A stretch of DNA of 64,000 bases, taken from positions 20,723,208 to 20,787,207 of the forward strand of contig NC_089323.1 of NCBI RefSeq assembly GCF_036669915.1. Reading direction: 5' to 3'. The DNA is from Pocillopora verrucosa (taxonomy: Eukaryota > Cnidaria > Anthozoa > Scleractinia > Pocilloporidae). Positions within the stretch are counted from its first letter, which is position 1. Each line of letters starts with the position of its first letter. This document shows, piece after piece, positions 17,217 to 54,800 of this stretch. The notes beneath the pieces were generated by a model. It was not told where the DNA came from and did not search any database. It saw only the letters and a program-made list of their open reading frames with translations. The translations under genes and the position numbers were made by a program.

Positions 17217-20200
17217 TCAAGTTGCCATGGTAATGAAAAGAAGCAGGGCAAAACAAACAGTACTGGTTAGGACAACGAGGAATCCAAAGGTCATGTAAAG
17301 TAGTCCTGCAAAAGTGAAAAAAAAAGGTTATGACGAGAGAAGCGGTACCAACGCAGGAGACGAGACCTATCATAGCTTTCGACGTTCGTCTTGCGCAATT
17401 GTATACAAATCATTGGTAAGTGACAAGGACGACCCATCGTACGCGCCGTAGGATCTTACCTTTCTTACTCTTTTGGCACCTAATGTAGATCTCAAGTGCA
17501 ACAACTGCTACCAGGCCGACGCAGAAAAAGGTCATGAGATAAACTCCGACTTCAGCGTTTAAATGAGGCAGGCGAAGGCCGAGGAATATGTTGGCCACTA
17601 AAAACCGACATAAATAAGAATGTCAGTATAATTATTAGTGCCTACTGATAACAAAGGTTAAGAAAATGACTTATTTTCTATCAAAACTCACCCGCAAGAA
17701 TAAATGCAGAGATGCCAACACTACGATGGCACCAGTTGAAAATCCATCGACTGTGCGCAAGAACAGAAAAATGTAATAAGTCCACCGTCACACTTTGGCG
17801 ACCAATTTTTTCGAAATTGTTCTTAAACTAAATTGAGTTTACAGCACGATATATTTCCTTACTTCTCAGTTGCTGGTTTAGGCCTCATGATCGCCATAAT
17901 GGGCTGTGCACAGACAAGAAGAGTGATAATGACCCCTAGTACAGAGTGTGCCACATCTGCCTGATGATTAATACACGATAAAATCAGTTAAGGGTTGATA
18001 GAGATATTACCTAGCCCTAAAGTACAAAAGAAATATCTCAGTCTTTTGTTTCTCCCAACTGGAAGGCGTAACAAAATGAAAGAGAACTGACTTTTAGCAA
18101 AAAGGTTATTGCCTGCTAACTACTACAGGCATAGGTTCAGAAACTTAATTAGAGTATAGAACTTTGATGCCTACTTAGCATGAGTAAATGAACCTAAAGA
18201 TGTCACATACAGATTAAAGCACTACGTTAAACCAACAGTGACAGTTTTTTCCTTACTTCAGACCAGCCTTCGACGTGAGCAAAAACCAGCACAAAACCGA
18301 CTAGAGTGAAAATCAAACAGCTTACAGTCAGTGCCCTGTGAACCTAAAAGAAACAGGTGAATTACCCAAAGACAGAAATAAAATCAAGCTGTCTAAGAGA
18401 CTGTCCACTAAATGATCGCTAGTTATTTATGTGTTAACATTCCGCTTGGGGGGTTTGCTCAGTCAAGAGGGAACGAAAAATTTAACTTTTGAACTACATC
18501 ATTCTACTATATATGCAACTAAACCATCCCCATTATGCGGCCCTTCACAAAACTATCACCGTACGCAAAATTTCTGACAAACTCAGCAAAGTGGGATGGT
18601 GGTCATTTCAGTGTATATTTCCTTACTGTTGCCTCGATGAAAAGTTGGCAAGATTACCTGGAACCACTTCTTAAGTCCAAATAGTTTTCCCCAGGCGTCC
18701 TTCATATAACGCGCGGCAAACATAGCCAGAGTTGCAAACCCAACCCAGGCCACCACCATTAGCGAGCCTAAATATCAATAAAGAGTAAAACATTAGTAAG
18801 AGCTTAGTACGCAGACTCCCCTAAAGTATTAAAAGTACTCATTGAGCCTACATTGGGAAGTTAATAACTGTCATTTGAGATGAGAGAAATCCCCCCCTCC
18901 CCTTGCCTCTACTTGTTGGGATATAAAATTTCCGAGTCCTATGAAACACCTGACGAACGATAAGAAGTAAGCAGAGACAAAAAGGAATCATCCTATTTTT
19001 GTATAACCTTTCACAGCTAAATATCAAACTCTAGTTACCGTGAGCTTTCAGTAGCTTGTTGTCCGTAGTCTTACTCTCGAGCGCGGTGTTCAGTTTACAA
19101 ACATCGACTTTACTTGTGCTGGGTGACCTGTGAGTGTGCCGGATAAGTATACCACCTGAAGATAATAAATAAGAAAATACAGTTATGATAAACGGCAGTG
19201 AGAATACACCAGGTAGGTCTTACGCTGATTGAATCGCTGATGAGAAATATTTCCCAACGTACCATTCACATCACCACGAGCGTAAATTAAGAACACTTCT
19301 TGGTCCAATCCTAACATGCCATTTGCTGTTTTATTTCGAGAAAATCTGAGAAAACATTAAAAAGAAAGTGTTTTAAAGTAAGTATTCAACTTAAATGCTA
19401 CCAAAGATTCAGACATTTTCATAACTTTCTGAAAAGAATGTCAAAGGATTATACGTTTTAAGTTTTTTTCGATTACATTTTCACAACTAACCAATGACAG
19501 TACCCACCTACACTTAATGACTCCGTCTTCATACGCACCAGAGATCACCATAAGGCCTGCAGGAGTCTGGTTTAAACCAAAAGGTTTAGTTACACAGCTT
19601 GCGCACAAAATGTAATAAGTAAAAAGGTTTTAAGACTAGAGATGGACGAAAAACAGACTTAAGATAAAACAAAGTTGGAATTGAACTCGCAAGATGGGCT
19701 TTCCTTCTCTCTTTCCATTTTAAGTAAAGTGTACAGGATTCGAAAAAAAAAACAAAAACAAAAACACATGCACACACATATGGCCACGTTCAGTCTCATT
19801 CGAAACCTGACCATACATATATATTTTAAACCCTGGTCTAAACGCACAAATCTTTCTCACCGGTTTGGTTTGAACTGGGTTGTCATGGCCAGTCAGGCTA
19901 TAGTGCTCCGTGGCTACAGTGTCATCATTTAAGCGAGAGCAGATAATAGTATCTGTACCGTCCTGAAGCAAATGTAAAGGAATGGGTAATGATTTCACAA
20001 AGGCAATTGCCACTGTCGATGAAGCTTTCATCTACGCAAAGGCGTTCTAATTTACCATTTTGCTCTCTTTGTTGAATCCGATGGCGACCCAACCAGTCTT
20101 CGCACTTAACTCAAATTTGACGTCATTCTTGTCTTCGCAAGGTTCGAATGTGACAAGATAGTCACAGGTGCTGCTAGATGTACAGTCTGTGGGCTCCGAG

Positions 20201-23200
20201 TAACAACTCTTTGTTTGGCCACATTGAGAAGTTAAAAACTGAAAGAGAAAGTAAAACGTAGGAATACCGTCAGCGCGGGCAGACAATTTGGCCGAAACAG
20301 CTGATAGTTCGTGAAATCTGGGGCTAATAGCGATTTGACACCATTTCTTGACTCTTTAAAGAACTGGTCAGCGAAGAAAAAGCGAAGAATTATGTCAGTC
20401 TACAAATTTGCCTTCTGTTTCATACTTACCTCAAGTTCACCTTCGGGGGTGGGTGCTGGTGCTGTTTTACGCCCGTTTTTCAGCACGGCAGGTTGGGTAA
20501 CATTCACCAGTTCTAGGGAAAATGTCGCATTTTCTCTATGATACGAAAGAGCTCCTGTGTTACCTAAAAAAACAAACAAACAAACAAACAGTCAAACAAA
20601 CAAACACAAAACGGGTATGAGTTTAAAGTGAAAAAATGCAAAATTCACAAAAATTAAGCAAAAAAAAATGTATTCTTTCCAAACGACACTGTCTTTTAAA
20701 AAGTGCATTGTTTAGGTTTGTGCAAAATTGCCCTCGGTTGGCCAGGCTCATTATCTACTAGAGAAAGCAACTTTTTCAGCAGAACGTAAACGAATATAAT
20801 CTTCGTTTAGATGATAAAAGAAAATGTGATTAAGGATACTTACTGACTTTACCCCAAGCAAATACAAAAAACCAGCTCTTGGTTAAATTTTTCATCCTTG
20901 GATCAGTGGGTGAAATTTTGCGAACAAACCTACCAATAGATATGTAAGTACATTGTCACTTTGTTAAAAATAACTCGAAGAAGTGCGCCCGTCAATTGTT
21001 TCTTTGAAGAAATTATTTTGTACTAACTGGCCGTTGTGATTACTTTGGTTTTGGTTTTACTACTCCTCATTAGGAATGCATTTTGATGTACAAGCATGAC
21101 ATATACAGCGATTCCTGAGACCGTAATTACTTACTTGCAAGTAACTGTTCCATTTTCGTACACTCCCATATCGCGAATTATGTCCGTAGAGTTTTCCTAA
21201 CGATAACAATAATGATAATCAGTTCTAAGTGAAACCGAAATACTTAACGAGCGATGTCAGTATGGGAATACATATGTCGATCCTTACCAAGTCAGTCCTG
21301 ATTGGCTGATTGTAATCTAAGTGATAGTGTCTAATTTCTACAGCGTTATTGGATGAAGTTGAACAAGTAATGGAGTCCGTTTGGTCCTGAAACGAAAATG
21401 ACCATAAGGAAACTTCAGTTTGGCTAGCATGAAGCATAAGCATGAGACGCAGTAAGCTAAAGGTCAATATGGAAACTGCCAAGTTGTTAAAAACATTTAT
21501 GTCTGTTATCTCACACTAACATGAAAATTATACTTATGGTGTGAGTTCAACATACTCGAAAACTTTCGTTTATGTTGATGTGTATCAGAGAACTGTTAGA
21601 AAACTTGAAAATGCTCAAGCTTCACCTGACATGCAAACTACTGTTAACTGTATACTATAATTTCACCGTACCATTTTCTGCTTGGAATTGAATCCGATAG
21701 AAACGTAGCCATGTTTTCCACTCATCTCAAATGTAACATTTTCTCCTTTTGTTTCATAGGTGACCAAGAATTCGCAGTTTGAACTATCTGTGCAGTCTGT
21801 GGGCTCAGAATAACAACCTTTTTGGCTGCCGCAACCATTTTTCGTTATCTAAAGAACACAATAACAAATGATTGTCGAATGATCTTCAACAGGATAGAAA
21901 ATGCAACAAGTATACCGCTCCAACATGGGAACCGAAAGTGAGAATTTATCATGACGAAAATTATTCCCCTTATAAATAGATAACATGGCACGAATAACAT
22001 ATAAAGTAAATTTCAAGTCAGCGTTATTCGTTGTTATATAATCCATATCCTTCAACAAAAACAAATAACAGCCCGTTTTATTTACGCAAAGGGAAAGGGC
22101 GATTAAGCCGCGGAAGGCTTGGGGCGACTTCGCGAGCCATCGTCAAATGCACCCTGACAGAGCCGCCAGTTATACAAGCTAGTTATTGTTCTAAGTCACA
22201 TTTTTCTGTCTTTCCCGCTTGTGAGATGTCAAAATACGGAATTATTGTCTGGTACAGATTTCTCATGCGACTTATTTTGGAGAAGAGTCAGATACAACCA
22301 ACACTCAGTGTTACCTCAAAGCCAGGCTGTATCACTGGTGGCTGTTGTGGGTCCAATGCAGGGCCACTGACAGTCACAGACTGAACACCAACCCAAAAAC
22401 TGGTGTAATTTTCGACGAAGGTGCCCCTGAATCGAAGAAAATAAGGTTTAAAGGAGTTTCTTTCGCTTAAGATTGAAAAATTGAATGTATGTAATCAGAG
22501 ATGATGCCCCCCTTTTTGTAAACAAAACGGTGTTCATCGACAGTAGTAAAATGACTTGGATCCGTCTTCTAGCCTACGCCAGTATAAATATACTGAAATT
22601 GTTGCTAACCAAAATGTGATATTTCCAACGCTCTCTGCTGGTGCTTTCCAGGTAAATTCAAGCGTATAAAAGGCGGTAATCTGTGGTGGTCTGGAACGTT
22701 GGTGTGTCACTGTGTTCTGTTAACAAAAGAGAAATAAATGAAAAGTGAGGGATATTCAGGATAATCGAATTGCTCATCATTGTGATTGTGGATACAGAAA
22801 GTAAAGAGAGAGCAAACAGAAGAGTCCAAGATAACGGTCACTGAGAAGGGGAGCAAAGATGAAATCAAAAGCTGGTTACCTGTGGCTCTCCACCGGAACA
22901 CCACATATAGGTTTGGTTCGGGGACAGGTTCCCCTGAAAGGTACCAGCAGGTCTTGAATCCCCTGCAGCACGCGCCTGAAGTATGAACCCCTTCCACAGA
23001 GATAGAGAAAAAGAGACGTTATGACAAGACTTTATGACACAGAGGACTTAACGTTGCTAACAAAAGGGAGAATGATATGGGTCGGTAAGAAAAAACTCAG
23101 AGAAAATGAAACTATTTTTCACCATGATGACCTCAATAAAAACCCTAGGCTCACCTTAAAACCCTTGGTACCATTTACCGTTACAGTCAGCTGACCATCT

Positions 23201-23433
23201 CGTGTATAGCTATCATTACTCACGTGGATTCTGTATGGATTTGTGTTGGGCGGTTGAGGGGGAGTGGGTAAGGCCGGGGGTGGCTGAGTAAAATGGTACG
23301 CAAAAAGGCTTTCGCAAACTGTGATTGGCACATGTGTTGGGTACCCAATGCAAGTCATCAGTTGAGACGTGAACACTGCCAGGAGTCTGGAAAACAACTT
23401 CAAACGACAGATACACATGAGTAAGCAGGTCAA
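17217..23433 (-). CDS. FRRS1: Ferric-chelate reductase 1-like protein, Reeler-DOMON-DOMON-cytochrome b561 (paralog 3)
   Basis: Exons in + coordinates, in gene order: 23155-23433, 22880-22975, 22610-22716, 22315-22426 (Reeler); 21672-21848, 21288-21386, 21135-21196, 20844-20929, 20430-20563 (DOMON1); 20056-20238, 19861-19962, 19508-19566, 19263-19345, 19039-19155 (DOMON2); 18658-18767, 18257-18343, 17863-17960, 17692-17750, 17460-17597, 17217-17305 (cytochrome b561). The sum is 758 codons plus stop with consistent phases. Signs: an N-terminal leader (MCICRLKLFSRLLAVF), a Reeler strand (LEFTWKAP), two DOMON starts (KGCYSEPTDC, KSCYSEPTDC; VSIGFN, VAIGFN), and membrane helices with histidines in VHRAL, DVAHSV and CHRSV that suit heme ligation. 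FRRS1-family proteins move electrons across membranes to ferric iron. Human FRRS1 has one DOMON; this has two. The protein ends with a membrane helix (TMAT) and lacks the His-rich tail of the paralogs in the duplicated block. The start could be Met at 23433 or 23418. Confidence 0.88.
20571..20606. repeat. (CAAA)n microsatellite
   Basis: A short imperfect tract in an intron of the - strand FRRS1-like gene. Confidence 0.85.
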
Positions 23434-27410: not shown

Positions 27411-30400
27411 TTAGCTGTCGTGATCATGTTCGTGAGATTCTCCGTCAGCGATTGCAATCAGCACCAAAAGTGCAATCACAACACCAACTGAAACAAGAAC
27501 CGTAAAGGCGAACAGAAACTTGCGTTTATTTACAGCCTGCAAAAAGGAAAAAAAGCAGCAACAGGTGAGAACCGAAAGAAAACATCCACAGAGAGTATTA
27601 CCCTATTTGCACACAAAGCTTGGACGACTGGAAGAGAAGGAAATTAAGAATTTTTCCTTCAGCAGGAGTTCACAAAGAACGCATTTTACGTCACCTATAT
27701 CGCTGATCATAATGCACTGGCTTCATTTAACCTTTCACTCCCAAAATCTCATTAGTATTTGTCCTCACTGTCTGTCATACAATTCTTATGGTGTTTGTTT
27801 GGAGAATTTGATATTGGATCAATAAATAATCCCCAAATAAGTATTTTTCTTTGTTAACATCACTTGTAATTGTAAGGAGACATGCTGTTTTAGCACACAT
27901 GTAGTTTAAGGGTTAAGGCATGAAAGCGTTTAAATTCGTTAAACTTCCTCGGGACCAGAATTAAGCATAGCAAAAGATACAACAAGACAAGATATAATGA
28001 AACGAATTTTCATACCGGAACGCCAGGGGGCTGCAATTCAACATTACCATCTGTCATTCAAAAAGACGTAAAAATACAACAAGAGTCACGTAACTAGCTC
28101 ACACGAAGGAGATTAGAATCAATCGAAAATGGCCAAAAGAATAGTAAGTTCTTTTACTGAAGAATATGACCATTTTTGAACGCTTTAATCTCACTTTGAA
28201 AGAATTCCTTAAAATAGTGTATAAAATCTAGACACTGACTGATCTTGACGGGCAGTTCTGATTGATACTTAGCTTCCTTACTACACAAGTAATCACCTTC
28301 TTTCCCTCCCGACGGACCGACGTTGAAAGATGCTCCGCCACGCGACGTCGTCAAAGTATCGTAAATGTCGTAAGCAACCACAAGAATCAAAGCCACACAA
28401 TAGGCGACCATGGGGTACAAGGCGGGGTCACCTAGCCTTGAGTGAGGAAGGCGAAGACCAAAGAACACAGTCACCACTGTGAAGTTTAACAAAGAAAAGT
28501 TTAAGACGTATTATATAAATAAAAATAAGGGGTTAGTATCTAAAGAAATTGCTGAAAACCATCAGTGTAAATTGGAGATAATTTCAGCCACTAATCTGTT
28601 TGACAGTTCAGTGATCTCTAAAGTGCGTGACTTTGTATGAAGTTTAAAAGAAAGTCGCAAACGTTTCCCGCACAGTATCATCTTTCTTTAACTCCTGAGA
28701 TCTGCTTTGCGATTCTCCCATCTACTGAGTTAGTTTCCATTTTCTATATTAATTAATCAAGGGAATCTGGTGTCACAGTGTATCGTTAATATAACAAGGA
28801 GTTACCAGTTTTTCAGTTCAAGAAGCTAAAGAGCTGCGCCAGTGATCATTCTAAAGTTATTTTGATTCAAAAGACTCCTTACCAGCCAGGATCAGTGCAG
28901 ACAGCCCCACACCACGATGGGCCCAGTTGAAGATGTAGCGTCTAAAGAAAAGCAACACCAACAATAAGGAACATAAACACTGAGGATACATAAGCGAAAA
29001 GAAAGAAAAAAAAATACTCTCCAAACATACTTTTCTTCTCCGGGGTGGGGTCTGAATACTGCCATAATTGGTTGAATAACAGCGAGTACCAGTACAAATA
29101 TACCAGTGATTGGATGAGCGCCAGCTTCCTGTGAGTAAAAGAAAAAAGAGGGCTGGGAACTATCTATCCATGTAGCCAATCGATAGGCCTAGTACAAGCC
29201 TAGCCTCTTGTTCAATCAACAATCCACCTCTAGAAAACTCTAGACTAGCGCTGTGCACCGGGGATATGACGTAAATTGACGGTGTCACTGGTTAACTGGT
29301 TGTGATTGGCTGAGGCGTCACGCAGATTAGGAAGACAATGATAATGATGCATTTATATAGCGGATTCTCCATATGAATATTTTTTAATGCACATATATCA
29401 TTTACATCATTTACATCAGTTTTTAGAGGACTGTGGCTAGACTGCTTAAGGCAGTTAACAAAATTTTTTAAAGGAAATTTCACTTTGCGAGAAGTGCGTG
29501 GGTTCTCTAATGTCCCCAGCTAACCAATATAGAGAAGATACAGGATACGAAGATTTAGTCCTACCTTGGTCCAGCGACCAGCATGAACAAAGATGAGGAT
29601 AACTCCAAGAATAGTAAGCACAACTGTCAAGGCCATTAACAATCGGTGAAGCTGAGAGATAACAATCAAAATATGGACCAATGTCAGTATCTGAGCGACA
29701 ACGGACCTATCCCTCCCCTGACATAACAACAGTCAATTAATAACAAGTTAGGGTTCATGTTGGGTTTGGGGAGAGGTAGGTGCGTAGTTGCTTAGATACT
29801 GGAATTTATCCAAAATATTTCACTTTTCCAGCAAACCCGTAAAAACTTTCTGTAAGTTTATCTTTCATTATCATCAGCGAATGAGAAACTAACTCCGAGC
29901 TGTTATATCCCCAAATAACAAATCAACACGATACTTAGAATAAAAAGTGAAGTACGGTGCTCCTCCCGTAAACGTAATTACCGACAAGTGTTTTGATAAA
30001 ACTGTGTTTGAAAGAATAAAAGTCTTACCGTAAACCACATTTTGGTACCAAGTAGAACCCTCTGGCCAAACAACACCTTCATGTGACGAGCAATGAACAT
30101 TCCAATCGATGCAAAGCCAATCCACGCAATAACCATCAAACAGCCTGTGAGAAATAAGGGGTCAAGACTGAAAATACTTTCTCATTTTGCACACTATTGT
30201 TTAAAATTGGACGGTAGTGTCTAAAATGGGATACTAACGTCTAAAATTGGACACTAGTGTCTAAAATCGGACACTTGTGTCTAGAATCGGACATTAGTTT
30301 CTAAGATCAGACACTAGTGTAGGAATCATCTGATAACGTTGAAGTTTGCGGTTAAGTCATTGGTTCTCAAAATGATTAAAGCTAGACATATTATACTTTT

Positions 30401-33400
30401 GTTTTACCGTGTTAGGAATTTTCCAAATATCTTTTGTTAATAATTGACGTGTTGCGCGTAATGTATAGCACCATGAAATCGGTCGTCGATTGTTCGAGAT
30501 TTATCAGGTTTAAAATAAATATTAGATTAATTAGACTATTGTGAATTTTTCCCAAAAATGGTTTCTTTGAATGAACTTCGTTTTAACCACAGTATCAGCT
30601 CTCTTACCATGAACCTGTACCAATGTAATGCTCTTCTCTGCTGCAACAAGCTCTCCCTTTGCACAGACGTCCACTTTCTGAGGGCTGGTTTTTGGAGTTG
30701 TGGAGTGTATGCCTATCTTGTCTCCACCTGTTTATTAAGAAAAGCATCAATATCAGTATCTGAGAAACTGCACATCTACCCCCCCCCCCAACCCAACTGC
30801 AGGCAACCGATAAGAAGTTAGGCTTTATCTTGAGTTTGGGGAGGAGTAAGTGCGCAGTTGCTCAGACACTGACATTGATCCAAAAACCGTTCACACTGTC
30901 AAACAATGAATACATATTTACTATTAAAAAAAAATCACTTACTCATAGGGCCGCTTGCATACACAAGATGCCATGTCTTCGTAAGATCCACCATCTTGTC
31001 ATCTTTCTTCTTCCTTTTAAAGCTATTTTAAATAACGACAACCGTGTTTTATTATCTCTCATTTCTAGAAAGGGAAGAATTTCTACCTAATTTCTTGTAG
31101 TATTTCTTCCTCTGGTGTTTTCATATCATTAAAAAGTTAGAGGAAAACGGAACTAAGCACAAACGACAAAATAACCCTACCCCACCCCTGACACTCTGGA
31201 TCCGAGGCTTCCTGGCCTCGGTTTAGGGAGGAGACTCCAATGGCTTAGGATCAAGATGTCCAGATTCGAACCTTGACTGGTTCATCATGTTGTGATTTTG
31301 AGCCATAATTTACATTCTCAGTGCCTCTTTAAGCTCAAGGACAAAAATAGGAGTCCATGAAAGTTAAGGAAAACTTGTAGGTTTGATCCACTTGTGATAC
31401 TCTCGCAGATGGAATGGGACTTACCGACAGGCAACAACTCCATCTTTTGATTCAGCAAGAGTTACAATAATAGAGGCGGGTGTCTGGAATACAAAAATAC
31501 GTCAATTATCACACATATAATCGAAACTCGCAAAAACTCAGTTTATCTGCGCGTTTTCATCTCTATACTCATTATTTCATGTTGTGATCCATACAAGCTA
31601 TATCTAAACTGGTAACCTGGTAAAAATACCGCTGGGCAGTTGAGGATGCCAGGTACTTACAGGGGTGGTCTTCGTAGGTCTACCGTACCCTTGGTCGGCC
31701 ATATAATGTTCTACAGTGACATTATTCTTGACTTCAGCGCATATTAAGGCATCGGTGCCATCCTAAAAACAAGCAAATAACAAGCAGTGCTGTCAACGAT
31801 TTGATCATTACCACCAGAACAGAAATGGCTCTTTTTCATTGCGTGACAGAATGATGTTCCACAGTGATTGTCGTGGGGGTTAGGACCAGTTAACCCTTTA
31901 ACTCCCAAGATCTCATTAGTAATTCTCTGACATACTATTCTTATAATGTTAGTTCTGAAAATTTGTTATTGGATTAACTAATAATTGAAATTTTTCTTGA
32001 TCCTCAACACTTTTCTGTTTCATATTGTATTGATATGGTAGGGAGGAGTTCTGTCTTGGTCACTCATGGGAGTTAAAGGGTTACAGAGATTACCGAAGTA
32101 AGTAAGAGGAAAGGTAGAAATTAAACAGGAACCTTCACTGGGTAGTATGCAGCCTGAACTGCAGATCACTTGTTTAATCAAGTCATGACTAAGGTCATAC
32201 TTCCTTCTGATTGGTTGAATTTTTTGCCAATCACAGAGCACTGTGTAGCAAAACCAGACTAATCCCAGTGGTCAGTCAATAGCTGCCTTGGATACTTAGC
32301 AAATTCAATTGTGCCAACATATTGTGACATCATAATGTGACATATAAATCTGACAAAGCACTGTGGTTAGAAGAAGAAACAATAATGTTACCTTGACTCA
32401 TGAGTTTAATGTGACATATAAATCTGACAAAGCACTGTAGTTAGAATAAGAAACAATAATGTAACCTTGACTCATGAGTTTAACGTGACATATAAATCTG
32501 ACAAAGCACTGTGGTTAGAATAAGAAACAATAATGTTACCATGACACATGAGTTTAAAATTTCAATAACTACAATTTATTTTTCTCACCATCTTGTTCTT
32601 TTCACTGTTAAAACCAATGGCCCCCCATTGTTTCTTGGTGCTAAGCTCAAATTCCACTGACTCACACTGGTCCCCCTCTGGTTTTATGGTCACAAGATAT
32701 TCACAGTCTTTGCTGGACTTGCAATTTGCAGGCTCAGAATAGCAGCTCTTTGTCTTCCCGCATCCATCTTTGGTTATCTTTTGTGACTAGAACACGAGAG
32801 TAAAACCCTTGTGAATGACACTCTGCAAGGCCAGATGGGCAGGTTCACTCATTTGGCTCATAGCGGTCAGCGGTCATCATGGCGGGAAGAAGCAAAATTT
32901 TTAGTTCGCCTATACTTTGGTTTCTTTTTGGCTTTTCTCTGTACATATTGGCATGTTCAAGTGGCAAAGATGCACACATCGGATTAGATATGCGCCTCGT
33001 CAAAGTAAACAAGCAAAGCTGGGATAATCATTGGTTTTTGAAACCGATATCATCCATTTTGTTTCGACTCAATATCCGCCATATTGGATTCGTGTGGAAA
33101 GCTCGAGTCAGATTCAGGAATTCGAGAGTCAACTACTACAGCAACTCCGATGCAAGCTTCAACTTTGAATATTTACAACTATGTGGCGACATATGTCCTA
33201 ACCCGGGGCCTGCTTCCCCTCTGTTTGATGCACTTCACGTGGTGAGAGACAATGGAAAGCAAGGAGTATCCATCGGTCACTCGAACGTGCGAGGCCTCCG
33301 TAAGAACCTCCCCGAAGTGAAAATACTTTTACAGCATACCAACCTGGATATCCTAACCATTTCTGAAACGCATCTGACACAAGATATAAGCGATAACGAA

Positions 33401-36400
33401 GTAAACATCGATGGATACCGAATTCTGAGAAGAGATAGGTCACACAAAGTAGGAGGCGGAGTCGCTATTTACTTTAACATTAGCCTAGATTGTGTACGTA
33501 TATCCAAATATGACAACGACGGCATTGAAGCTCTCTGGATTGAATTGAAAGCTCACTCGCAAAGATTACTTGTGGGTTGTGTATATAGACCTCCTGACGT
33601 TACATCTTTCTTTGATGAATTCAACCAAGTATTGAGTACAATTTGGATGTCTCGCAGGAATGTTGTGATCGCTGGTGACTTCAATTCAGATCAGCTTGCT
33701 ACTAATGGAAATGGTGCGAAATTCAAACGCATCTTACAATCTTATAACTTTTGTAACATCATAAAAGCACCCACAAGAACCTCAGCACATTCTAACACTT
33801 TGATCGATCTGATTTTGACTATCAATACCTCAAAGGTCTCAAAGTCTGATGTGATTGAGTATTGCATAGCTGATCACAAATTCATCTACGTTATCTACAA
33901 GCTGAAGATCAGGAATCCAAAGCCTTTTATTAAATATGTCCACAACTTCAAGAACGTGTTGGAAAACCCGAAAGACTTCAAACATGACCTGGAAAGTGCT
34001 CCCTGGTGGGTCTGTTCCACCTTTGAGGACTTGGATGACATCACTTGGGCTTGGAATTGCATGTATAATGTTATTGCAAGCAGTCACATTCCCTTACGTA
34101 AAGCCAAGGTTAGAAAAAATTCACTACCTTGGATGAACAGTGAGATCCGGAAAGAGATGAATAAGAGATATAAACTTCTGAAAGCCTGTGATGGCACACC
34201 CGCTACTAATAAACTCTGGGTTGATTACAAATCCTCTAGGAACAAAGTATCTAAGATGCTACGACGTGCTGAAGCTCAATATTGGAAAAAGAAATTTACA
34301 GAGACCAAGGACTCAAAATCTTTCTGGAAAACTGTGAACGAGGCCACTGGAAAACCTAAGAATAAACATATTGGCCCCCTCAGAGATGCTGAAAATAAGG
34401 AAATCACAAATGACTACGAGAAAGCTGAACTGATTAACTCTTACTTCATAAATATTGGCAAGGAACTAGCTGAAAAATTCCCCGAAGCTGATGAACCCCA
34501 TCAATTCATGTACAGAGTTACCCCCACTGTGCAGGTCTTGGAGGTCAACATCAACAAACTCAAAACTGATATCAAGACAATTAAAATTAACAAAGCATCT
34601 GGTCCTGATGGCATCTCTTCTCGTAGCTTAGCTATTGCAGGAACATCCGCCCTAGAGGGCATTGTAACTGTTTTCAAGAGCAGCATGGCTCAGTCCAGCT
34701 TCCCTAACACATGGAAGATTGCAAAAGTTAATGCAATCTTTAAAAAAGGAAACCCAGCAGATGCTTCAAATTATAGGCCAATATCACTTTTAAGTATCCC
34801 CAGCAAGCTGCTCGAAAGCCAGATCTGCAACATAATTGATACCCATCTGAACAGCTGTGGCATAAAAAGCTGTAAACAGTGGGGGTTTAGCAAGGGACTA
34901 TCGACTGAAGGAATGCTTACCTCTATGACTGAAGGATGGAAGACAGCAATTGACAATGGTCTGACAGTTGGAGCAGTCTTTATTGACTTCCAGAAAGCTT
35001 TTGACACTGTCCCCCATTATATTTTATCGCATAAACTACACGCCATTGGAATATCAGGATCTCTTCATGAATGGCTAATGAGCTATCTTACTGATAGATG
35101 TCAATTTGCTGAAGTTAATAATTGCAGGTCGGTCACTGACTATGTGCGATATGGAGTCCCTCAAGGCTCGCTTCTTGGCCCCCGGCTCTACACCATATAT
35201 GTTAATGATCTCCCTGACCACATCGACTCGGGAGATCTATACATGTATGCAGATGACACTACAGTTTACTGTATTGGACCAAATGTTGACCAGGTTATGT
35301 TGTCACTAAATAAATCATTGGAGCAAGTTCTCCTGTGGAGCATTAAGAATCAGCTAACCATCCACCCAATTAAAACTGAAGCAATGATACTAAGTAAAAC
35401 CTCTTTTGTTGGGCCTATACCTCCCCTCCACTTTAACACTGGCCATATCGACCTGGTTAATTACACCACTTGTCTTGGAGTTAAAATTGACAATAAGCTG
35501 ACATGGTCTGTGCACATTGACTCAGTGAAGAAATCTTTTACGCAGAAGGTTGGAGCGTTGAAGAGAATGAGAATCCTTCCGAAGAAGGTTCTCGAGGAAA
35601 TATACTTTAAAACAATTATCCCCAGTGTAACGTATGGAATTTCGGTATGGGGAAATTGTTCTCCTTCCGCACTGAACTCTCTAAACCATATTCATGCAAG
35701 AGCAGCTCGTATTGTGAATAACCTCGACTCAACGATGGCAGATGACACATGTCTCATGAAATCCGACTGGCTGCCCATCTCTTACTTCTATAAAAAATCT
35801 GTACTGTTTCTCTTGCACAAAGTATATTTTGGAACAACGACCCAGTCGATATGTGAACTGTTTTCTAAAAGAGTTTCTTCTAGATCTTCTCGTGTTCCTA
35901 ACCAATTTAATGTCATTAGATTTAGATCAGAGACCGGCAGGAACTCCCTACGATACAGAGGTCCTGTTATTTGGAATTTTGTAAATAGATTAGTTAAAGT
36001 ACCTGAAAGTTTTTATTCTTTTAAACAAATTTTACGTAAACATGTTAAGACTATTGACAATTTTTCATTTGAGAAAGAGGCAACAGTAGTTGCCAACAGA
36101 AAGGACCATTTCATTTACTTTTAGATTTATATGTTAGTCTTAGTGAACACCATTTTATTTGTATATAGTAGTTCTAAGTTATTATTGCAATTTTTATATA
36201 TATGTAATTCTTAATATTTAGTATAGTAGGTCCACATCAGCCCTTTGGCTGCCTTTCACACAACCTACTTATCAAATAAAGAATGTATGTATGTATGTAT
36301 GTATGTAAGCTCATTCCTAAGGTTCTTCCCCTCCCTATATTAGCTGGGCCCATTTTTTGATCATTGGGCTCACCTGAAAGCTCTCTGTTGAAGTCCCACT

Positions 36401-38110
36401 GGTGACATCCTCTGCTAGTGGACCATGAACCACAGGAGAAGAAACTTTTTCCCAGAAAGTGGAATAGCTCTGAACAATGGTTGCACTGTATATAGAAAAT
36501 AAATAACACATGAAAATCTACAAAAGGCAGGGACTGCATATTTAAACATTGGCTGCTGCATATCTCAAATATTTCCTGTAGGAACTCTGTCTATGCAATT
36601 ATAACTATAAAGTGCCTTGCACAAAGGGTTCAGTACATTTCAACTTCCAACAAAACACTTACAATAATGCAACAATCAATTCAAAGCTTCAACATCCCCC
36701 CTCATGCATTCCACAAACATTTGATTGTCCTTCGTGCCCAGCCTGTGGGGTGGGGAATTTGAACCAGAAGTATTTAGTATCAAGTCTTTCCAGTTGTATC
36801 TTTTAATATGGAGGTACTTAAAGGAAAAGAGTTGACTTTTGCAAGCAGATGGCCCTGAGGAGGAAAGGTCTACAAGGTCCAGGTTTTAGGTTTCACCAAA
36901 TAATTGACCATCAAATCTGACACTTGGGAAGGACATTAAACTCAATTTTGGCCCTTAAGAATGGGTTTTTGTTAAACCAATTTTCAAAAGTTCAAATGCT
37001 TGAGTTCAAATAGACTGACACATTACATTCCACAGCCAACCCCCCTTCCCACCCCTCATGTTAACAAGTTTAAGCTACATATTATGACCTTCAAAAAAAC
37101 GTATATGTTACTGACATGAAGCTGATGTTCCCTGCACTCTTTTCAGGAGCCATCCAAGTGAACTGAAGTGAATTCAAGTTCTTAGCTGGGTTAGGATTTT
37201 TATGACCAACTGTGTCCTAAATATGAGCAGAAAAAAAACAATAGTTTCCTCTGCCAAGACACCTATAGTGCTTATTATCTTAAAAAGAATTTGAAATAAG
37301 TATGCAATACCTTACCTTTGATTCATCTCCAGAACAGTCAAGAGAAGCTGTATCTGCAAGAAAAATAAAAATATGTCCGCTTGTCCACCAATGCTTCCAA
37401 AAAAAAGAAAAGGTATAATTGCCATTCTTTCACCAAAGATTGGCCAGAAATGTTCTATCCTTCATCAGCCAGGACTCCTGTTTCCTTTTTTTGTTTGTTT
37501 GCAAGAACAGTTAAAGAGATAGTACTTGTGTCCAATTTGATGTCCCAGGGATGTCAGCAGAAGAAGGAGAAGTCCTATATAAGTGTTTTACTGGGATTTT
37601 TTTGGCATTCAAGTTTCGACGTTATAAACAATTTCTTCCCTGGTTGAGAAAGACCTAGGAACCCCTTATTTTCACCTTAAATTCATAGAAGACAAAGAAA
37701 AAGTTACTTTCTCAGATGTCTCATTCTCATAAACTGTCTTGAATTATGTGCGAGAAGTAGAAGAAGAAGTTTAGAGAATACATACAACTTGGAATTTGAG
37801 TAAATGTTCCTACTGGCCGAGGAATCGAGCTTTCAGTCCCCTGTGCATTTAAAATGAATCCCTTAAAAGGCTGTGATCCTGAGATGATCACTGTCAGGTT
37901 GTCTCCAGGGTTATACAAAAGTGAGGACACAGAGATGTTATAAGGAGGCAGTCCTTGTTGTGCCACAGCCCTTTTGTGGTGAGGGAACTTATTCTCGCAG
38001 GCACTCAATGGAGGACCTTTAGAGAATCCAAACACGGTTGAGACACTGAGGAGCAACAGCTGAGCTGCGACCTGAAATAGATTAAACGAAAAAGTTCTTG
38101 CGAACATCAT
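27411..38110 (-). CDS. FRRS1: FRRS1-like protein A: Reeler, single DOMON, cytochrome b561, His-rich tail
   Basis: Exons in + coordinates, in gene order: 37786-38110, 37316-37353, 37116-37216, 36374-36485 (Reeler); 32589-32786, 31661-31762, 31425-31483, 30943-31022, 30608-30727 (DOMON); 30029-30144, 29565-29651, 29031-29128, 28883-28941, 28282-28476, 28016-28050, 27411-27536 (cytochrome b561 and tail). All phases agree; the sum is 616 codons plus stop. The leader (FNLFQVAAQLLLLSVSTVFG) looks like a signal peptide. The DOMON starts CGKTKSCYSEPANC and ends its first half GAIGFN. Membrane histidines occur in LHRLLM, VHAGRW, GAHPITG and WAHRGVG. The C-terminus is SHEHDHDS, a possible metal-binding tail. 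Expected role: transmembrane electron transfer and ferric reduction. Paralog B has an extra DOMON; here the intron after the Reeler holds an oppositely oriented LINE. Expression is not shown by sequence. The DOMON exon could instead begin at 32777, giving 613 aa. Confidence 0.86.
27727..27916 (+). mobile_element. MITE family 1 copy
   Basis: It starts AACCTTTCACTCCCAAAATC and ends AGTTTAAGGGTTAAG. The same element sits at the matching place in copy B (46130-46318), so it predates the duplication. Confidence 0.7.
30190..30322. repeat. 20-bp minisatellite, short allele (copy A)
   Basis: About six units of the form GTCTAAAATCGGACACTAGT, in an intron of FRRS1-like A. The copy B counterpart is about three times longer. 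Confidence 0.85.
31891..32083 (+). mobile_element. MITE family 1 copy
   Basis: Full-length looking, with terminal inverted repeats TTAACCCTTTAACTCCCA and TGGGAGTTAAAGGGTTA. It is in the intron between the first two DOMON exons of FRRS1-like A; the matching copy is at 50980-51173. Confidence 0.78.
32335..32556. repeat. Three tandem 74-bp units
   Basis: Units at 32335-32408, 32409-32482 and 32483-32556 differ at only a few bases. Copy B has a single unit near 51414-51487, so the expansion happened in A after the duplication (or contracted in B). Confidence 0.85.
32879..36124 (+). CDS. LINE polyprotein: hydrophobic leader, 2A-like motif, AP endonuclease, reverse transcriptase
   Basis: 1081 codons, uninterrupted. 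Residues 11-26 are hydrophobic (PILWFLFGFSLYILAC), like a signal or anchor. Residues 103-111 read GDICPNPGP, matching the 2A consensus that causes a peptide bond to be skipped before the last proline. Then follow an APE-type endonuclease with SETH (E163), GDFNSD (266-271) and ADHK (D332, H333), and a reverse transcriptase with SGPDGI, NYRPISLL, FIDFQKAFDTV, GVPQGSLLGP and YADD (790-793). All key catalytic motifs are present, so the element may be young. No separate ORF1 was seen. 2A-like sequences are known at the N-termini of some CR1/L2-group elements in invertebrates; the exact clade here needs a tree. Confidence 0.93.
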   Translation: MAGRSKIFSSPILWFLFGFSLYILACSSGKDAHIGLDMRLVKVNKQSWDNHWFLKPISSILFRLNIRHIGFVWKARVRFRNSRVNYYSNSDASFNFEYLQLCGDICPNPGPASPLFDALHVVRDNGKQGVSIGHSNVRGLRKNLPEVKILLQHTNLDILTISETHLTQDISDNEVNIDGYRILRRDRSHKVGGGVAIYFNISLDCVRISKYDNDGIEALWIELKAHSQRLLVGCVYRPPDVTSFFDEFNQVLSTIWMSRRNVVIAGDFNSDQLATNGNGAKFKRILQSYNFCNIIKAPTRTSAHSNTLIDLILTINTSKVSKSDVIEYCIADHKFIYVIYKLKIRNPKPFIKYVHNFKNVLENPKDFKHDLESAPWWVCSTFEDLDDITWAWNCMYNVIASSHIPLRKAKVRKNSLPWMNSEIRKEMNKRYKLLKACDGTPATNKLWVDYKSSRNKVSKMLRRAEAQYWKKKFTETKDSKSFWKTVNEATGKPKNKHIGPLRDAENKEITNDYEKAELINSYFINIGKELAEKFPEADEPHQFMYRVTPTVQVLEVNINKLKTDIKTIKINKASGPDGISSRSLAIAGTSALEGIVTVFKSSMAQSSFPNTWKIAKVNAIFKKGNPADASNYRPISLLSIPSKLLESQICNIIDTHLNSCGIKSCKQWGFSKGLSTEGMLTSMTEGWKTAIDNGLTVGAVFIDFQKAFDTVPHYILSHKLHAIGISGSLHEWLMSYLTDRCQFAEVNNCRSVTDYVRYGVPQGSLLGPRLYTIYVNDLPDHIDSGDLYMYADDTTVYCIGPNVDQVMLSLNKSLEQVLLWSIKNQLTIHPIKTEAMILSKTSFVGPIPPLHFNTGHIDLVNYTTCLGVKIDNKLTWSVHIDSVKKSFTQKVGALKRMRILPKKVLEEIYFKTIIPSVTYGISVWGNCSPSALNSLNHIHARAARIVNNLDSTMADDTCLMKSDWLPISYFYKKSVLFLLHKVYFGTTTQSICELFSKRVSSRSSRVPNQFNVIRFRSETGRNSLRYRGPVIWNFVNRLVKVPESFYSFKQILRKHVKTIDNFSFEKEATVVANRKDHFIYF
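33185..33211 (+). other. 2A-like ribosome-skipping motif in the LINE ORF
   Basis: It encodes GDICPNPGP, which fits D-(V/I)-x-x-N-P-G-P. It lies about 18 residues before the endonuclease fold, so skipping would release a roughly 110-residue leader and start the enzyme at proline 111. Confidence 0.8.
37786..38110 (-). CDS. Signal peptide and Reeler exon 1 of FRRS1-like A
   Basis: Two start codons in a row (38108-38110, 38105-38107) precede a leader conserved with copy B from FNLFQV onward. The second Met is the one shared with B. An acceptor-like CAG at 38072 could alternatively begin the exon after a 5' intron. Conserved cysteine-bearing Reeler sequence follows (SACENKFPHH, QPFKGFILNA). Confidence 0.7.
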
Positions 38111-45812: not shown

Positions 45813-48800
45813 TTAGCTGTCGTGATCATGTTCGTGAGATTCCCTGTCAGCGATTGCAATCAGCACCAAAAGTGCAATCACAACACCAACTGAAACAAGA
45901 ACCGTAAAGGCAAACAGAAATTTGCGTTCATTTACAGTCTGCAAAAGGAAGAAAAAGTAACAACAGGTGAGAACCGAAAGAAAACATCCACAGAGAGTAA
46001 TACCCTATTTGCACACAAAGCTTGGACAACTGGAAGAGAAGGAAATTAAGAATTTCTACTTCAGCAGGAGTTCCTAAAGAACGCATTTTACGTCACCTAT
46101 ATCGCTGATCATAATGCACTGACGTCATTTAACCTTTCACTCCCAAAATCTCATTAGTATTTCTCCTCACTGTCTGTCATACAATTCTTATGGTGTTTGT
46201 TTGGAGAATTTGGTATTAGATCAATTAATAATCCCCATATAAATATTTTTCTATGTTCTCATCACTAGTAATTGTAAGAAGACATTCTGTCTTGGTCATA
46301 CATGGAGTTAACAGGTTAGGGTATGAAAGCGTTTAAATTTGTTAAATCGCCTTCAACAAACTTTACTTGTTTCTTCCTCAGGACCAGAATTAAGCACAAC
46401 AAAAGACACAACTGAACAAGATATACTGAAATGAATTTTTTATACCGGAATGTCAGGGGGCTGCAATTCAACATCTTCAGCTGTCATTAAAATAAACAAA
46501 AAGATACAACAAGAGTCATGTGACTAGCATATATGGAATTGACAGACCAAAAGTATTGAATATGACTGAACTCCATTAACCATTAGTGTGCATTTCGAGA
46601 GTTTACATTTGTGTTACATGGGCACTGTTTCGTATCTTTAGTGTGATGATAACAGTCGATAGTCATTCAGTCACGTGAGGGAGATTAGAATCAATCAAAA
46701 ATGGCCAAAAGAATGGTAAGTTTACAGAAGAATATGACCTTTTTTGTATGCTTTCATCTAACTTTGAAACATTTCCTTAAAATAGTGTATAAAATCTAGA
46801 CACTGACTGATCTTGCCAGACAGTTCTGATTAATAACAGAGTTCTCCCAATAAATTAACAAGTCAGCTGGATGATCAGTTCTGATTAAAACTCAGTTTCC
46901 TAACTCCACAAGTAATCACCTTCTTTCCCTCCCGATGGAACGACACTGAAAAATGCTTCGCCCTGTGGTGTTGACAAAGTATCATAGATGTCGTAAGCAA
47001 CCACAAGAGTCAAAGCCACACAGTAGGCGACCATGGGGTACAGGGCGGAGTCACCTAGCCCTGAATCAGGAAGGCGAAGACCAAAGAACACAGTCACCAC
47101 TGTGAAGTTTAACAAAGAGAAGTTTAAGATGTATTATAAAAATTAGTGGTTAGTATCTAAAGAAATTTTCCAAAACCATCAGCGGGAATTGCAGATAATA
47201 TCAGCCTCTAATTTGTTTGACAGTTCAGTGATCTCTAAAGTGTATGACTTTGTGTGATGTTTCAAAGAAAGTTGCAAACATTTTCCACACAGTATCATCT
47301 TCCTTTAACTTCTAAGATCTGCTTTGCGATTCTCCCATCTACTGGGCTAGTTTCCATTTTCTATATAAACTAATCAAGGGAATCTGGTGTCACAGTGTAT
47401 TGTTAGTGTAACAAGGAGTAACCAGTTTTTCAGCTCAAGGAGCGAAAGAGCTAAGCCAGTGATCATTCTAAAGCGATATTGATTCAAAAGACTCCTTACC
47501 AGCCAGGATTAGTGCGGACAGCCCCACACCACGATGAGCCCAGTTGAAGATGTAGCGTCTAAAGAAAAGCAACACCAACAATAAGGAACATGAACACTGA
47601 GGATACATAAGAGAAAAGAGAGAAAAAAATATTCTCCAAACATACTTTTCTTCTCCAGGGTGGGGTCTGAATACTGCCATAATTGGTTGAATAACAGCAA
47701 GCACCAGTACAAATATACCAGTGATTGGATGAGCACCAGCTTCCTGTGAGTAAAAGGAAAAAAGAAGGCTGGGAACTATCTATCCATGTAGCCAATCGAT
47801 AGGCCTAATACAAGCCTAGCCTCTTGTTCTGTCAACAATCCACCTCTAGAAAACTCTTGACTTGTGCTTTGTGCCGGGATATGATGTAAATTGATGTTGT
47901 CACTGGTTAAGTGGTTGTGATTGGCTGAGGTGTCACGCAGGTCAAAGAGATAATAATAATAATGCATATGAATATGCCCTAATGCGCATATATCATTTAC
48001 ATCAGTTTTTAGAGGACTGTGGCCAGACTGCTTAAGGCAGTTAACAATATTTTTTAAAGGAAATTTCACTTTGCGAGAAGTGCGTGGGTTCCCTAATGTC
48101 CCCAGCTAACCATTATGGAGAAGATACAGGATATGAAGATTTAGTCCTACCTTGGTCCAGCGACCAGCATGAACAAAGATGATGATAACTCCAAGGATAG
48201 TTAGCACAACTGTCAAGACCATTAACAATCGGTGAAGCTGAGAAATGACAATCAAAATGTGGATCAATGTCAGTATCTGAGCGGCTATACGCACCTACAC
48301 CTTCCACTGACCCAACAACAGTCAATTTATAACAAGTTATGGCTCATGTTGAGTTTGGGGAGGGGTAGGTGCGTAGTTGCTTAGATACTGACATTTATCC
48401 AAAATATTTCACTCTTCCAGTGAACCTGTAAAAACTTTCTGTAGGTTTATCTTTCATTATCATAAGCAAATGAGAAACTAACTCCGAGCTGTTATATCCC
48501 CAACTAACAAATCAACACGATACTTGGAATAAAAAGTGAAATACAGTGCTCCTCCCATAAATGAAATTATCGACAAGTGTTTTGATAAAACTGTGTTTGA
48601 AAGAATAAAAGTCTTACCGTAAACCACATTTTGGTACCAAGCAGAACCCTCTGGCCAAACAACACCTTCATGTGACGAGCAATGAACATTCCAATCGATG
48701 CAAAGCCGATCCATGCAATAACCATTAAACAGCCTGTGAGAAATAGAAAGTCAAGACTGAAAATACTTTCTCATTTTGCACACTATTGTTTAAAATCGGA

Positions 48801-51800
48801 TGGTGGTGTCTAAAATGGGATACTGATGTATAAAATTGGACACTAGTGTCTAAAATTGAACACTAGTGTCTAAAATCGGACAATAGCATCTAAAATCAGA
48901 CACAAGTGTTTAAAATCGGACACTAGTGTCTAAAATCGGATACTAGTGTCTAAAATTGAACACTTGTGTCTAAAATCAGACACTATTGTCTAAAATCAGA
49001 CACTATTGTCTAAAATCAGACAACAGTGTCTAAGATCAGACATTTGTGTCAAAATTGGACACTTAAGTCCAAAATTGGACACTAGTGTCTAAAATCGGAC
49101 ACTTGTGTCTAGATTCAGACATTAGTTTCTAAGATCAGACACTAGTGTAGGAACCGTCTGATAACGTTGAAGTTTGCAGTTAAGTCATTGGTTCTCAAAT
49201 TATTCAAGCTAGTCATATTAGACTTTTGCTTTACCATGTTAGGAATTTTCCAAATATCTTTTGTAAATAATTGACATGTTGCATGTAATGTATAGCACCA
49301 TGAAATTGGTTCTCGATTGTTTGAGATTTATCAGGTTTAAAAAAACTCTTAGATTAATTAGACTATTGTGAATTTTTCCCAAAAATGGTTTCTTTGGATG
49401 AACTTTGTTTTGACCACAATATCAGCTCTCTTACCATGAACCTGTACCAATGTAATGCTCTCCTCTGCTGCAACAAGCTCTCCGATTGCACTGACGTCCA
49501 CTTTCTGAGGGCTGGTTTTTGGAGTTGTGGAGTGTATGCCTATCTTGTCTCCACCTGTTTATTAAGAAAAGCATCAATATCAGTATCTGAGAAACTGCAC
49601 ATCTAACCCCCCCCCCACCAACCCAACTGCAGTCAACTGATAAGAAGTTAGGCTTTATCTTGAGTTAGGGGAGGAGTAAGTGCGCAGTTGCTCAGATACT
49701 GACATTGATCCAAAAACTGTTCACACTGTCAAATAATGAATACATATTTACCATTAAAAAACATCACTTACTCATAGGGCCACTTGCATACACAAGATGC
49801 CATGTCTTTGTAAGATCCACCATTTTGTCATCTTTCTTCTTCCTTTTAAAGCTATTATAAATAATGACAACCGTGTTTTATCTCTCTTTTCTAGAAAGGG
49901 AAGAATTTCTACCCAATTTCTTGCAGTATTTCTTCCTCTGGTGTTTTCATATCATTAGAAAGTTAGAGGAAAATGGAACTGTGCACAAGTGACAAAATAA
50001 CCCTACCCCACCCCTGACACTCTGGATTCAAGGTTTCCTGGTCTCAGTTTAGGGAAGAGACTCCAATGGCTCAGGATCAAGAAGTCCAGATTCTAACCTT
50101 GACGGGTTCATTGTGTTGTCATTTTGAGCCATAATTGACATTCTCAGTGCCTCTTTATGCTCAAGGACAAAAATTGGTGTCCATGAATGTTAAGGGAAAC
50201 TTGAAGGTTTGATCCACTTGTGATACTCTTGCAGATGGAATGAGACTTACCGACAGGCAACAACTCCACCTTTTGATTCAGCAAGAGTTGCAATAATAGA
50301 AGTGGGAGTCTGAAATACAAAAATATGTCAATCATCACACACTTAATTGAAACTCGCTAAAATTCAGTTAATCAGTGCATTTTCAACTCTATACTCATTA
50401 TTTCATGTGGTGATTCATACAAGCTATATCTAATTATATAGTAAACTCAGTTATGCACATATTCTGATTGGTTCTCACTTATGATCTATTAGAGGACAGA
50501 CGTATAAATGATGTCATCATTAAAACTTTTTTCTGTATATTTTAATTCTTTATTATATAAAACAAATAGATTCCAAGTTGCCATGTGTCTGTTCAGTAAT
50601 AGATCACAGATGACGTCAAAATGTGGTAAGAACAAAAAAGTGGCACATGAGGCGCAGCTGAGTATGTCACTGATGTTCAACTTGGAATCTATTTGTTAAA
50701 CTGGTAACCAGGTAAAAATACCACTGGACAGTCGAGGATGCCAGGTACTTACAGGGGTGGTCTTTGTAGGTCTACCATACCCTTGGTCGGCCATATAATG
50801 TTCTACAGTGACTTTGTCATTGACTTCAGCGCAGATTAAGGCATCGGTGCCATCCTGAAAACAAGTAAATAACAAACAGTGCTGTCAACAATTTGATTAT
50901 TATCACCAGAACAGAAATGGCTTTTTCATTGCATGACAGAATGATATTCTGCAGTGTTTTTGTGGGGGTTAGGACCAGTTAGCCCTTTAACTCCCAAGAT
51001 CTCATTTAGTAATTCTCTGACATACAATTCTTATGATGTTAGTTCTGAAAATTTGTTATTGGATTAACTAATAATTGAAATTTTTCTTGATCCCCAACAC
51101 TTTTCTGTTTCATATTGTATTGATATGGTAGGGAGGAGTTCTGTCTTGGTCACTCATGGGAGTTAGAGGGTTACAGAGATTACCGAAGTAAGTAAGAGGA
51201 AAGGTAGAAATTAAACAGGAACCTTCACTGGGTAGTATGCAGCCTGAACTGCAGATCACTTGTTTAATCAAGTTATGACTGGGGTCATACTTCCTTCTGA
51301 TTAGTTGAGTTTTTTTGCCAATCACAATCAGTTTGTATTCCCAGAAGTCAATCAATGGCTGCCTTGGATACTTAGCACATGAAATTTTGCCAACATATTG
51401 TGACGTCTTAACATGACGTATAAATCTGACAAAGCACTGTGGCTAGAAAAAGAAACAATAATGTTACCTTAAATCACAAGCTTAACATTTCAATAACTAC
51501 AATAATTTTTTTCTCACCATCTTGTTCTTTTCATTGTTAAAACCAATGGCCACCCATTGTTTCTTAGCGCTAAGCTCAAATTCCACTTCGCCTGACTCTC
51601 CCTGGTCCCCCGTGGGTTTCATGGTCACAAGATAATCACAGTCTTTGCTAGACTTGCAGTTTGCAGGCTCAGAATAGCAGCTCTTTGTCTTCCTGCACCC
51701 ATCTTTGGTTATCTTTAGTAACAAGAACATGAGAGCAAAACATTTATGAATGACACTCATGGTTTACTTGTGAGTTAAGTCATTTACATACGGTTCTTCA

Positions 51801-54800
51801 ATTTTCCTCTTTATTCCAACAAAGATAAAAAGTATTAAAGAAAGGAGAAAAGGGTCAAATGTGAACTTAATGATTGAACATCTTACTGTAGCTTCAGCCT
51901 GACTTTTTTCATCTTTAAGAACTGCATTGACACCAAGGTCCACCATATCAGCTGTGACAGATTGATTGGCACGGTGATACTGTGCACTGCCAGACAAACC
52001 TGATTATACAAGGATCAATGTTAGCAACTGTGCATCAACCCCTTCCCTCAACCAACATTAACTCTACCTTGTCATCAGTTGACTGTTGTTGGGTTATTGA
52101 CATTGATCCTTATACAAATGCTTTAGTTTAAATGATATACTGTGCGCAAACATATGAAAGTAATACTTGAATCAGCAATGAAGTCGCACAGGTAAATAGC
52201 TTCTTTTTCATTAATTTAATTTTCTTAATAAGTGAGTAGGGTTTGGCATTCCCAATAATTTTATTGATTCATATCGACTGGCTTTTCAAATTCAACCAAA
52301 ACTACAATGCTCTCATACATTACAGCAACAAAATGGTTAATAATTCAAGCAGTAAGTAAAACTTGATTCTCTACACGTTCTGGATGGAAAAAGATATTAT
52401 AAGAAACTGTAAATAAAGGTATATTGCACATTTCCCTGAAAGATAAATAAATATTTTTAGAGTAGATCCCAGAAAGCATTGAAGACACAGATATTAACAG
52501 AGTTCACAACCACTCTCAAAGTGGGTGGTGAGGGTCTGGGAAGAAGTGACAAGGAAAAGAGTGACTTCTTCCTCCACTCTCCCTCCTTTGCCCCCCCCCC
52601 CCTCCTTCATCTGTTTTTCCCTCAATTGCCTTTCTTTTCAAATCATTCCCACAAAATTAGTTCCTTGAAGAGGTTGCTGAGATGTCAAATAGAGAACTCT
52701 ATTGTAAGAGTGATGGTACGTACTTGTTTTACCCCAGGAGAAGAGCAGATACCATTTCTTGGTTAGATCTCTAAAGTAGACTGCATTTGAGGTAAGTTTA
52801 CGAGTGACCCTGAGGTAGAGAGACAGAAGAGAAATTGTTAACTTGAAAAGAGAAATAAAAAGTAAAACTCATTTGAAAAATCTTTGAGAATCCATCCCTT
52901 TATTACAATTTTTTCTTTTTTCAGCATCAACACTAAGGTTGTTTCCAACATATTTCCATGACAGTAGCCAAAGACGTTCATCAGTCAAAGGGTAAGGAAC
53001 AGTGGGATCTCATGAGCATTTGATGGGTTAAGAGGATGGCACAAGTTTTCTAAACCAATCAGAGAGCAAAGTAAAGAAAGACAAAGCAATGAAAATTGCT
53101 CTGTTTGTTACTAAGACTTGTCAGCAGCCTTTTTTACCAACCTGCACTTTATCCCACCATCCTCATAAACTATCTTGTCAAAGGTGACGTCAGAGTTACC
53201 AGTCTGAGAGAGAAATTATCTTATGAAGGATCTTATCACCCAATATGTTCTACTAATTATGAGGATGACACTGTCATGCTATAAAGAAATAGCCAGATAT
53301 TCCTCACCAGGTCCTGTCGGACAACACTGTGACCAATAGAATAGAAATGACGAAATTCTGCCAAATTAGTTGCCATGGTAGTGCACATTATGGAGTCCAT
53401 CTTATCCTTAAGAAGGAGAACAACAAAAAAAGACAAAATTTGTTGCCTGAGAAAATGTATGAACATAAAAGATCATGAAAACATGCAAATAAGCTGAATT
53501 TTCTATGGTGTTTCCTCTTACCATTAGCTTATTTTCATTAAAAGCAACTGCCACCCAGCGCTCTTTAGCACTCATGTCTATGATAACATTTCTTCCAGAA
53601 ACATTGTAAGTGAAAAGATAGGTACAGTCTCCACTTCCAGCGCAGTTTGATGGTAAGGAGTAACACCCTTTGGTCTCTCCACATCCCTTTTTGTCAATCT
53701 ACAATGTAAAATGGTTCCAGAACAAAGGGTCATGGAAATAAGGCTTCATGATAGAAAACCATACATTTGCTGGGCCCATTTTTTGATAGCCTCACCTGAA
53801 AGCTCTCTGTTGAAGTCCCTCTAGTGACATTCTCCACTGGCGGACCGTGAACAACAGGTGAAGTAACTTTTTCCCAGAAAGTGGAATAGTTCTGAACGAT
53901 GGTTGCGCTATATATAGAAAATAAATAACATGTGAAAGTCTGCAAAAGGCAGCAGGGACCTCATATTTAAACATATTTCCTGAAGGAACTCTGTCTACAC
54001 AGTTAAACTGTGGAGTGCCTTGCACAAGGGGCTTAGTGTAACAAAACGCTTACAATAATGCAACAATCAATTCAAAGCTTCAACATTTCCATTTGGGCAA
54101 CCCACATACATTTGATTGTCCTTCATGCCTGGACAGTGGGGTGGAAAATTTGAACCTTGCCTGGGTGGGGTGGGGAATTTGAACCAAAAGTATCAAGTCT
54201 TTCCAGGGGAACACACATTTTATCTTTTAATATGGAGGTGCTTAAAGAAAAAGAGTTCACTTTCACAAGCAGATGGAGGAGGAAAGGAGGAGGAGGTCTA
54301 CAGGGTCTAAGTTTTAGGTTTCACCAAATAATTGACCATCAAATCTAGCACTTGGGAAAGGACATTTGAACTCAATTTTGGCCTTAGGGTGGGTTTTTGA
54401 TAAACTCCCAGGTGGAGGAAGGTGGAAACGTCAAATTGACCAACATATTACATTTCACAACCACCCCCGATTCCCCACCCCACCCCCAACCCCCCCATTT
54501 CAACATGTTAAGCTTAATATTATGACATTTAAAACAAACATATATGTTACTAACATGAAGCTGATGTTCCCTGCGCTCTTTTCAGGAGCCATCCAAGTGA
54601 ACTGAAGTGAATTCAAATTCTTAGCTGGCTTAGGATTGTTATGACCAACTGTGTTCTAAATATAAGCAAAAAAGAGAAACCAACAACAAGACATCTATAA
54701 CGTTTATTGACTATAAAAGAATTTGAAATAAATATGCAGTACCTTACCTTTGGATTACCTCCAGAACAGTAAAAATAAGCTGTATCTACAAGAGGAAAAA

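Follow-up and report, generated by a model that had tools for sequence, protein, structure and literature searches.

Comparison of three FRRS1-like genes in a 64,000-nt stretch of the Pocillopora verrucosa genome (hereafter, the window) supports a two-DOMON layout as the older state and the loss of exactly one DOMON module, apparently in frame, from one of two tandem copies. A LINE lies in the same intron of that copy, and we consider it probable that the two changes were separate events: a frame-neutral deletion of the module and a recent intronic insertion of the transposon. We infer both their independence and their order from the structure of the locus and from its comparison with the rest of the genome.

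Self-comparison of the window revealed tandem copies A (25.1-43.3 kb) and B (43.5-63.4 kb), within which splice models built from sequence only place FRRS1-like genes on the reverse strand at 28154..38107 (A; 14 coding exons, 604 codons plus stop) and 46900..55557 (B; 19 coding exons, 741 codons plus stop). The count of 16 exons and 616 codons given for A in a first-pass annotation is thus revised. A third paralog, C, occupies 17410..23364 on the same strand, with 19 modelled exons and two DOMON modules; the 5' end of its model is incomplete. A Pfam scan, covering A and B, found the Reeler domain in both copies (2.1e-27 and 8.8e-27, respectively), DOMON in one stretch of A (5.3e-16) and in two stretches of B (1.2e-32), and a cytochrome b561 core for which both copies barely exceed the cutoff of 23 bits (23.6 in A and 24.7 in B). 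The layouts first annotated, with one DOMON in A and two in B and C, agree with these gene models and, for A and B, with Pfam. B and C each carry five DOMON1 and five DOMON2 exons, and A carries the DOMON2 set only; the two DOMONs of C come from its gene model. By splice model and Pfam, the five DOMON1 exons of B lie at 51887..53698 (reverse strand: 53698-53522, 53406-53308, 53203-53142, 52809-52724, and 51999-51887), and the Reeler-DOMON1 and DOMON1-DOMON2 junctions are both phase 0 in the model. In A, the last Reeler exon (36374..36485, reverse strand) has the donor CAG|GTGAGC, and the first DOMON2 exon (32589..32786, reverse strand) has its acceptor at 32786 or 32777; as the first-pass annotation had proposed, these are usable splice signals, and both are phase 0 in the model.

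The direction of change cannot be set from A and B alone, which leaves room for the reading that B gained its second DOMON and that A retains an older single-DOMON state. C, however, holds both modules in the same order, in an exon structure that matches that of B. Moreover, in an alignment of the five DOMON sequences, DOMON1 of B paired with DOMON1 of C, and DOMON2 with DOMON2, in 1994 of 2000 bootstraps (the other two pairings were obtained in 4 and 2), and a FastTree of the same sequences gave the same split. This like-with-like pairing implies that the two-module state is older than the divergence of C from A/B, and therefore that DOMON1 was lost by A, in keeping with the earlier claim that two DOMONs are the older state. 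On the basis of this pairing we rejected B as the derived copy, and we find a gain by B scarcely credible.

We also searched the genome (353 Mb, 52 contigs) with the piece of B that is missing from A. Among the 40 of 797 candidates that were scored, no close copy other than B itself was found (a weaker one could be missed at this depth); the 39 non-B matches span about 58-93 bp each, all to one stretch of the query. A transfer of A's DOMON1 elsewhere was rejected on these grounds, as the 40 candidates scored gave only such short matches to a single stretch besides B. A genome search with the Reeler matched only A and B (three candidates) and missed C; since further FRRS1-like genes could be missed in the same way, a gene total cannot be stated. 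Clusters of DOMON-encoding exons were seen on two other contigs (C9:7.84-7.97 Mb and C2:7.17-7.18 Mb), which suggests tandem families of DOMON proteins.

Plain comparison of A with B leaves about 25-30 bp unexplained between the tail of the LINE and the clear right-hand homology. Their match is B 51776-51815, which adjoins the lost piece on its DOMON2 side, and this places the deletion joint outside the LINE. The native intron tract of A, 36306..36342 (of which the first 1-3 bases may be LINE tail and the last ones may belong to the right-hand side), aligns to B 51776-51815 and contains the joint. Split alignment of both flanks scored 73, versus 41 with the right flank alone; it located the joint at about 36332-36338 and the missing piece of B at about 51815..53763 (reverse strand), that is, about 1949 bp that hold all five DOMON1 exons. 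The LINE tail is then separated from the joint by 24-33 bp of native intron, and on this alignment neither end of the predicted deletion is at or inside the LINE. When the tract was compared with B, none of 39927 random windows (72 bp, both strands, locus and query excluded) scored as high. With six choices of the tract ends, 0, 69, 50, 22, 0, and 0 windows of 30000 scored equally well, where the value of 22 belongs to the strictly unassigned 24 bp (36309-36332). If the locus was kept among the windows, 2 to 9 of 5000 did as well, depending on the scoring scheme. The tract is short and its alignment gapped, and cruder tests were less discriminating: against the whole 2-kb piece, 76 of 200 shuffles scored equally well, and for a shorter query 17 to 56 of 1000 shuffles and 1 to 18 of 1000 random windows did so. 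The 17 bp at B 51759-51775 are without clear counterpart in A. A genome search with the joined flanks matched only A's two flanks, B, and contig C9, and no empty site was found. Repeat-driven misassembly was rejected as the source of the deletion, given that the joint would lie outside the LINE, in sequence matching only A and B in that search.

The LINE is a full-length non-LTR retrotransposon (32862..36305, forward strand), antisense to A, with an (ATGT)n tail and a 3' end at 36305-36308. In the whole-genome search, its 5' piece had 10 other copies and its 3' piece 39 other matches, 19 of which cover at least 380 of 446 bases; the ends shared among these copies delimit it at about 32862 on the left and 36305-36308 on the right, and comparison with the 10 other copies shows it to be complete at both ends. 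Its open frame (32870..36121, forward strand) encodes endonuclease and reverse transcriptase domains (Pfam Exo_endo_phos_2, 5.8e-10; RVT_1, 4.2e-29), as in APE-type non-LTR retrotransposons. Some members of that group reportedly carry 2A-like peptides, and near the N terminus of the frame (window positions 32864-36121) we noted GDICPNPGP, which we take to resemble a 2A (StopGo) motif. The element is practically unmutated. It is 100% identical to one other copy (L060) across 3447 bp, and 5 of the 10 copies fetched show no mismatch to it (one of them with one gap), the worst having five mismatches in about 3.4 kb. Given a dS of 0.19 between A and B (541 codons), this near-zero divergence indicates that the LINE inserted far more recently than A and B duplicated.

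To the left of the LINE, clear homology to B stops at 32823 and is followed by a filler of 38 bp (32824..32861), 33 bp of which (32828-32860) are identical to C9:9374947-9374979; weaker relatives of parts of this stretch are dispersed in the genome. The filler also has a weak match in B immediately to the right of the left breakpoint, equalled by 180 of 5000 random windows. By reading, short fillers were recognized at 3 of 10 other LINE copies, one of them based on only a 5-bp repeat. For human L1, a published account describes both template jumping and full-length insertions with extra bases at their 5' ends (PMC2912911). A 6-bp direct repeat, GCTCAT, is found at both ends of A's LINE and could be a target-site duplication; the test is ambiguous because one copy of the repeat is at the end of the filler, which matches C9. 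Six or more bases are common to both sides in 5 of 11 LINE copies, including A's, and in 1 of 110 cross pairs.

We propose that, after the tandem duplication, A would have lost about 1949 bp extending from the DOMON1-DOMON2 intron into the Reeler-DOMON1 intron, and with them all five DOMON1 exons. The joint would lie in unique sequence where no more than a few bases are shared, as expected of end joining. Phase-0 introns flank the DOMON1 module, so that the frame would have been kept while two half-introns were fused into one. Separately and very recently, the LINE would have entered in antisense orientation at a distance of 24-33 bp from the joint, with the 38-bp filler at its 5' end, lengthening the fused intron of A while removing no coding exons. 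The first-pass annotation had instead claimed that the LINE replaces 2011 bp of B (51759-53769), either because its insertion deleted the piece or through a later deletion anchored in the element. The LINE and the gap do coincide in a simple BLAST comparison. Nevertheless, the missing piece is shorter, at about B 51815-53763, the LINE is complete, and what separates its tail from the joint is native intron. The window tests of the native tract and the split alignment led us to discard replacement of the module by the LINE, and we regard both a direct exchange for the 2011 bp and a deletion ending inside the element as very improbable.

More weight has to be given to the closeness of the two features, which makes one complex event possible: by our own estimate, the chance of a LINE landing within about 35 bp of the joint is about 0.7% in a 10-kb gene. 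In such an event the LINE would have opened the intron, the 33-bp filler would have been copied from C9, and repair would have dropped the 1949 bp, leaving an island of native sequence. The distance of only 24-33 bp, the filler adjoining the 5' end of the LINE, and the want of a clear counterpart of B 51759-51775 at the left side of the LINE in A are all in its favor. Target-primed reverse transcription, however, normally leaves the flank at the 3' end of a LINE intact, and here the deletion lies beyond that very end; furthermore, no end of the deletion coincides with an end of the element. Insertion-mediated deletion has been described for human and chimpanzee L1, and A resembles those cases in combining a LINE and a deletion in one intron, but differs from them in that 24-33 bp of native sequence, on the 3' side of the LINE, stand between the element and the joint. 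We therefore hold a single complex event to be unlikely, although it is the most serious competitor of two separate events. That such an event was recent, inserting the LINE with its filler, removing exactly one phase-0 module across a native island of about 30 bp, and leaving one- and two-DOMON alleles of A that may still segregate in the species, is a slightly slimmer prospect. The LINE has accumulated practically no mutations, so individuals of the species can be typed for it and for the deletion independently.

Copy A appears to be intact. We excluded a visibly disabled gene on account of its open modelled frame, its usable splice sites, and a dN/dS of 0.27 with B (541 codons), and the first-pass claim that one module was lost in frame from a protein that is otherwise unbroken is borne out by this frame, the phase-0 junctions, and the Pfam domains. 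Lineage-specific residue changes number 15 in A and 11 in B over 509 sites (28 changes could not be polarized); those in the Reeler lean to A, with 9 versus 3 in B. A Met occupies the same alignment column in all five DOMON sequences, and a His does so in four of the five, including DOMON2 of A; in DOMON2 of C, a His is one column off. These two residues are the predicted heme ligands in DOMONs of the CG8399 type, for which a route of electrons has been suggested that leads from ascorbate in the cytosol via b561 to the heme of DOMON (PMC10691727). Since the DOMON2 retained by A is the one next to the membrane, a one-DOMON protein can plausibly still pass electrons to heme. The product of A, which we would expect to be expressed and active, is thus likely to have remained functional as a transmembrane reductase with a single DOMON, and B would have one further predicted heme site outside. 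The LINE adds five AATAAA or ATTAAA hexamers on the gene strand to the intron of A, a putative risk to its transcript.

The order of Reeler, DOMON, and cytochrome b561 in A and B is that of FRRS1, SDR2, and Drosophila CG8399 (CYBDOM), and the candidate ligands Met and His stand close to the sites where heme binding is predicted in these proteins. The difference is that B and C have two DOMONs, and that the single DOMON of A would be due to secondary loss. Vertebrate FRRS1 has one DOMON; the convergence of A with it, proposed in the first-pass annotation, holds for the domain count and for nothing beyond it. Our search of the literature on FRRS1/DOMON proteins and LINE-linked exon loss, judged by titles, returned nothing on this locus. 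In insects, family members with one DOMON and with two are both on record, two DOMONs being reported in the aphid A. pisum and in 19 of 888 CYBDOM hits (PMC10691727). Since such relatives are already described, the loss in A makes a neat illustration but is not surprising. It shows cleanly how a tandem duplicate can shed an entire exon module without cost to the reading frame, and it cautions against assuming that a transposon found in a gap is what produced the gap.

Smaller differences between the copies were observed as well. The modelled C termini diverge, B ending at a TAG and A continuing for about 40 codons (28154-28300 versus 46900-47000). A carries about three tandem copies of a unit of about 74 bp just downstream of its first DOMON2 exon (32333-32557), and B has one (51408-51486). 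Conversely, B contains a local tandem-repeat array at 48776-49148, the counterpart of which in A, near 30187-30320, is shorter.
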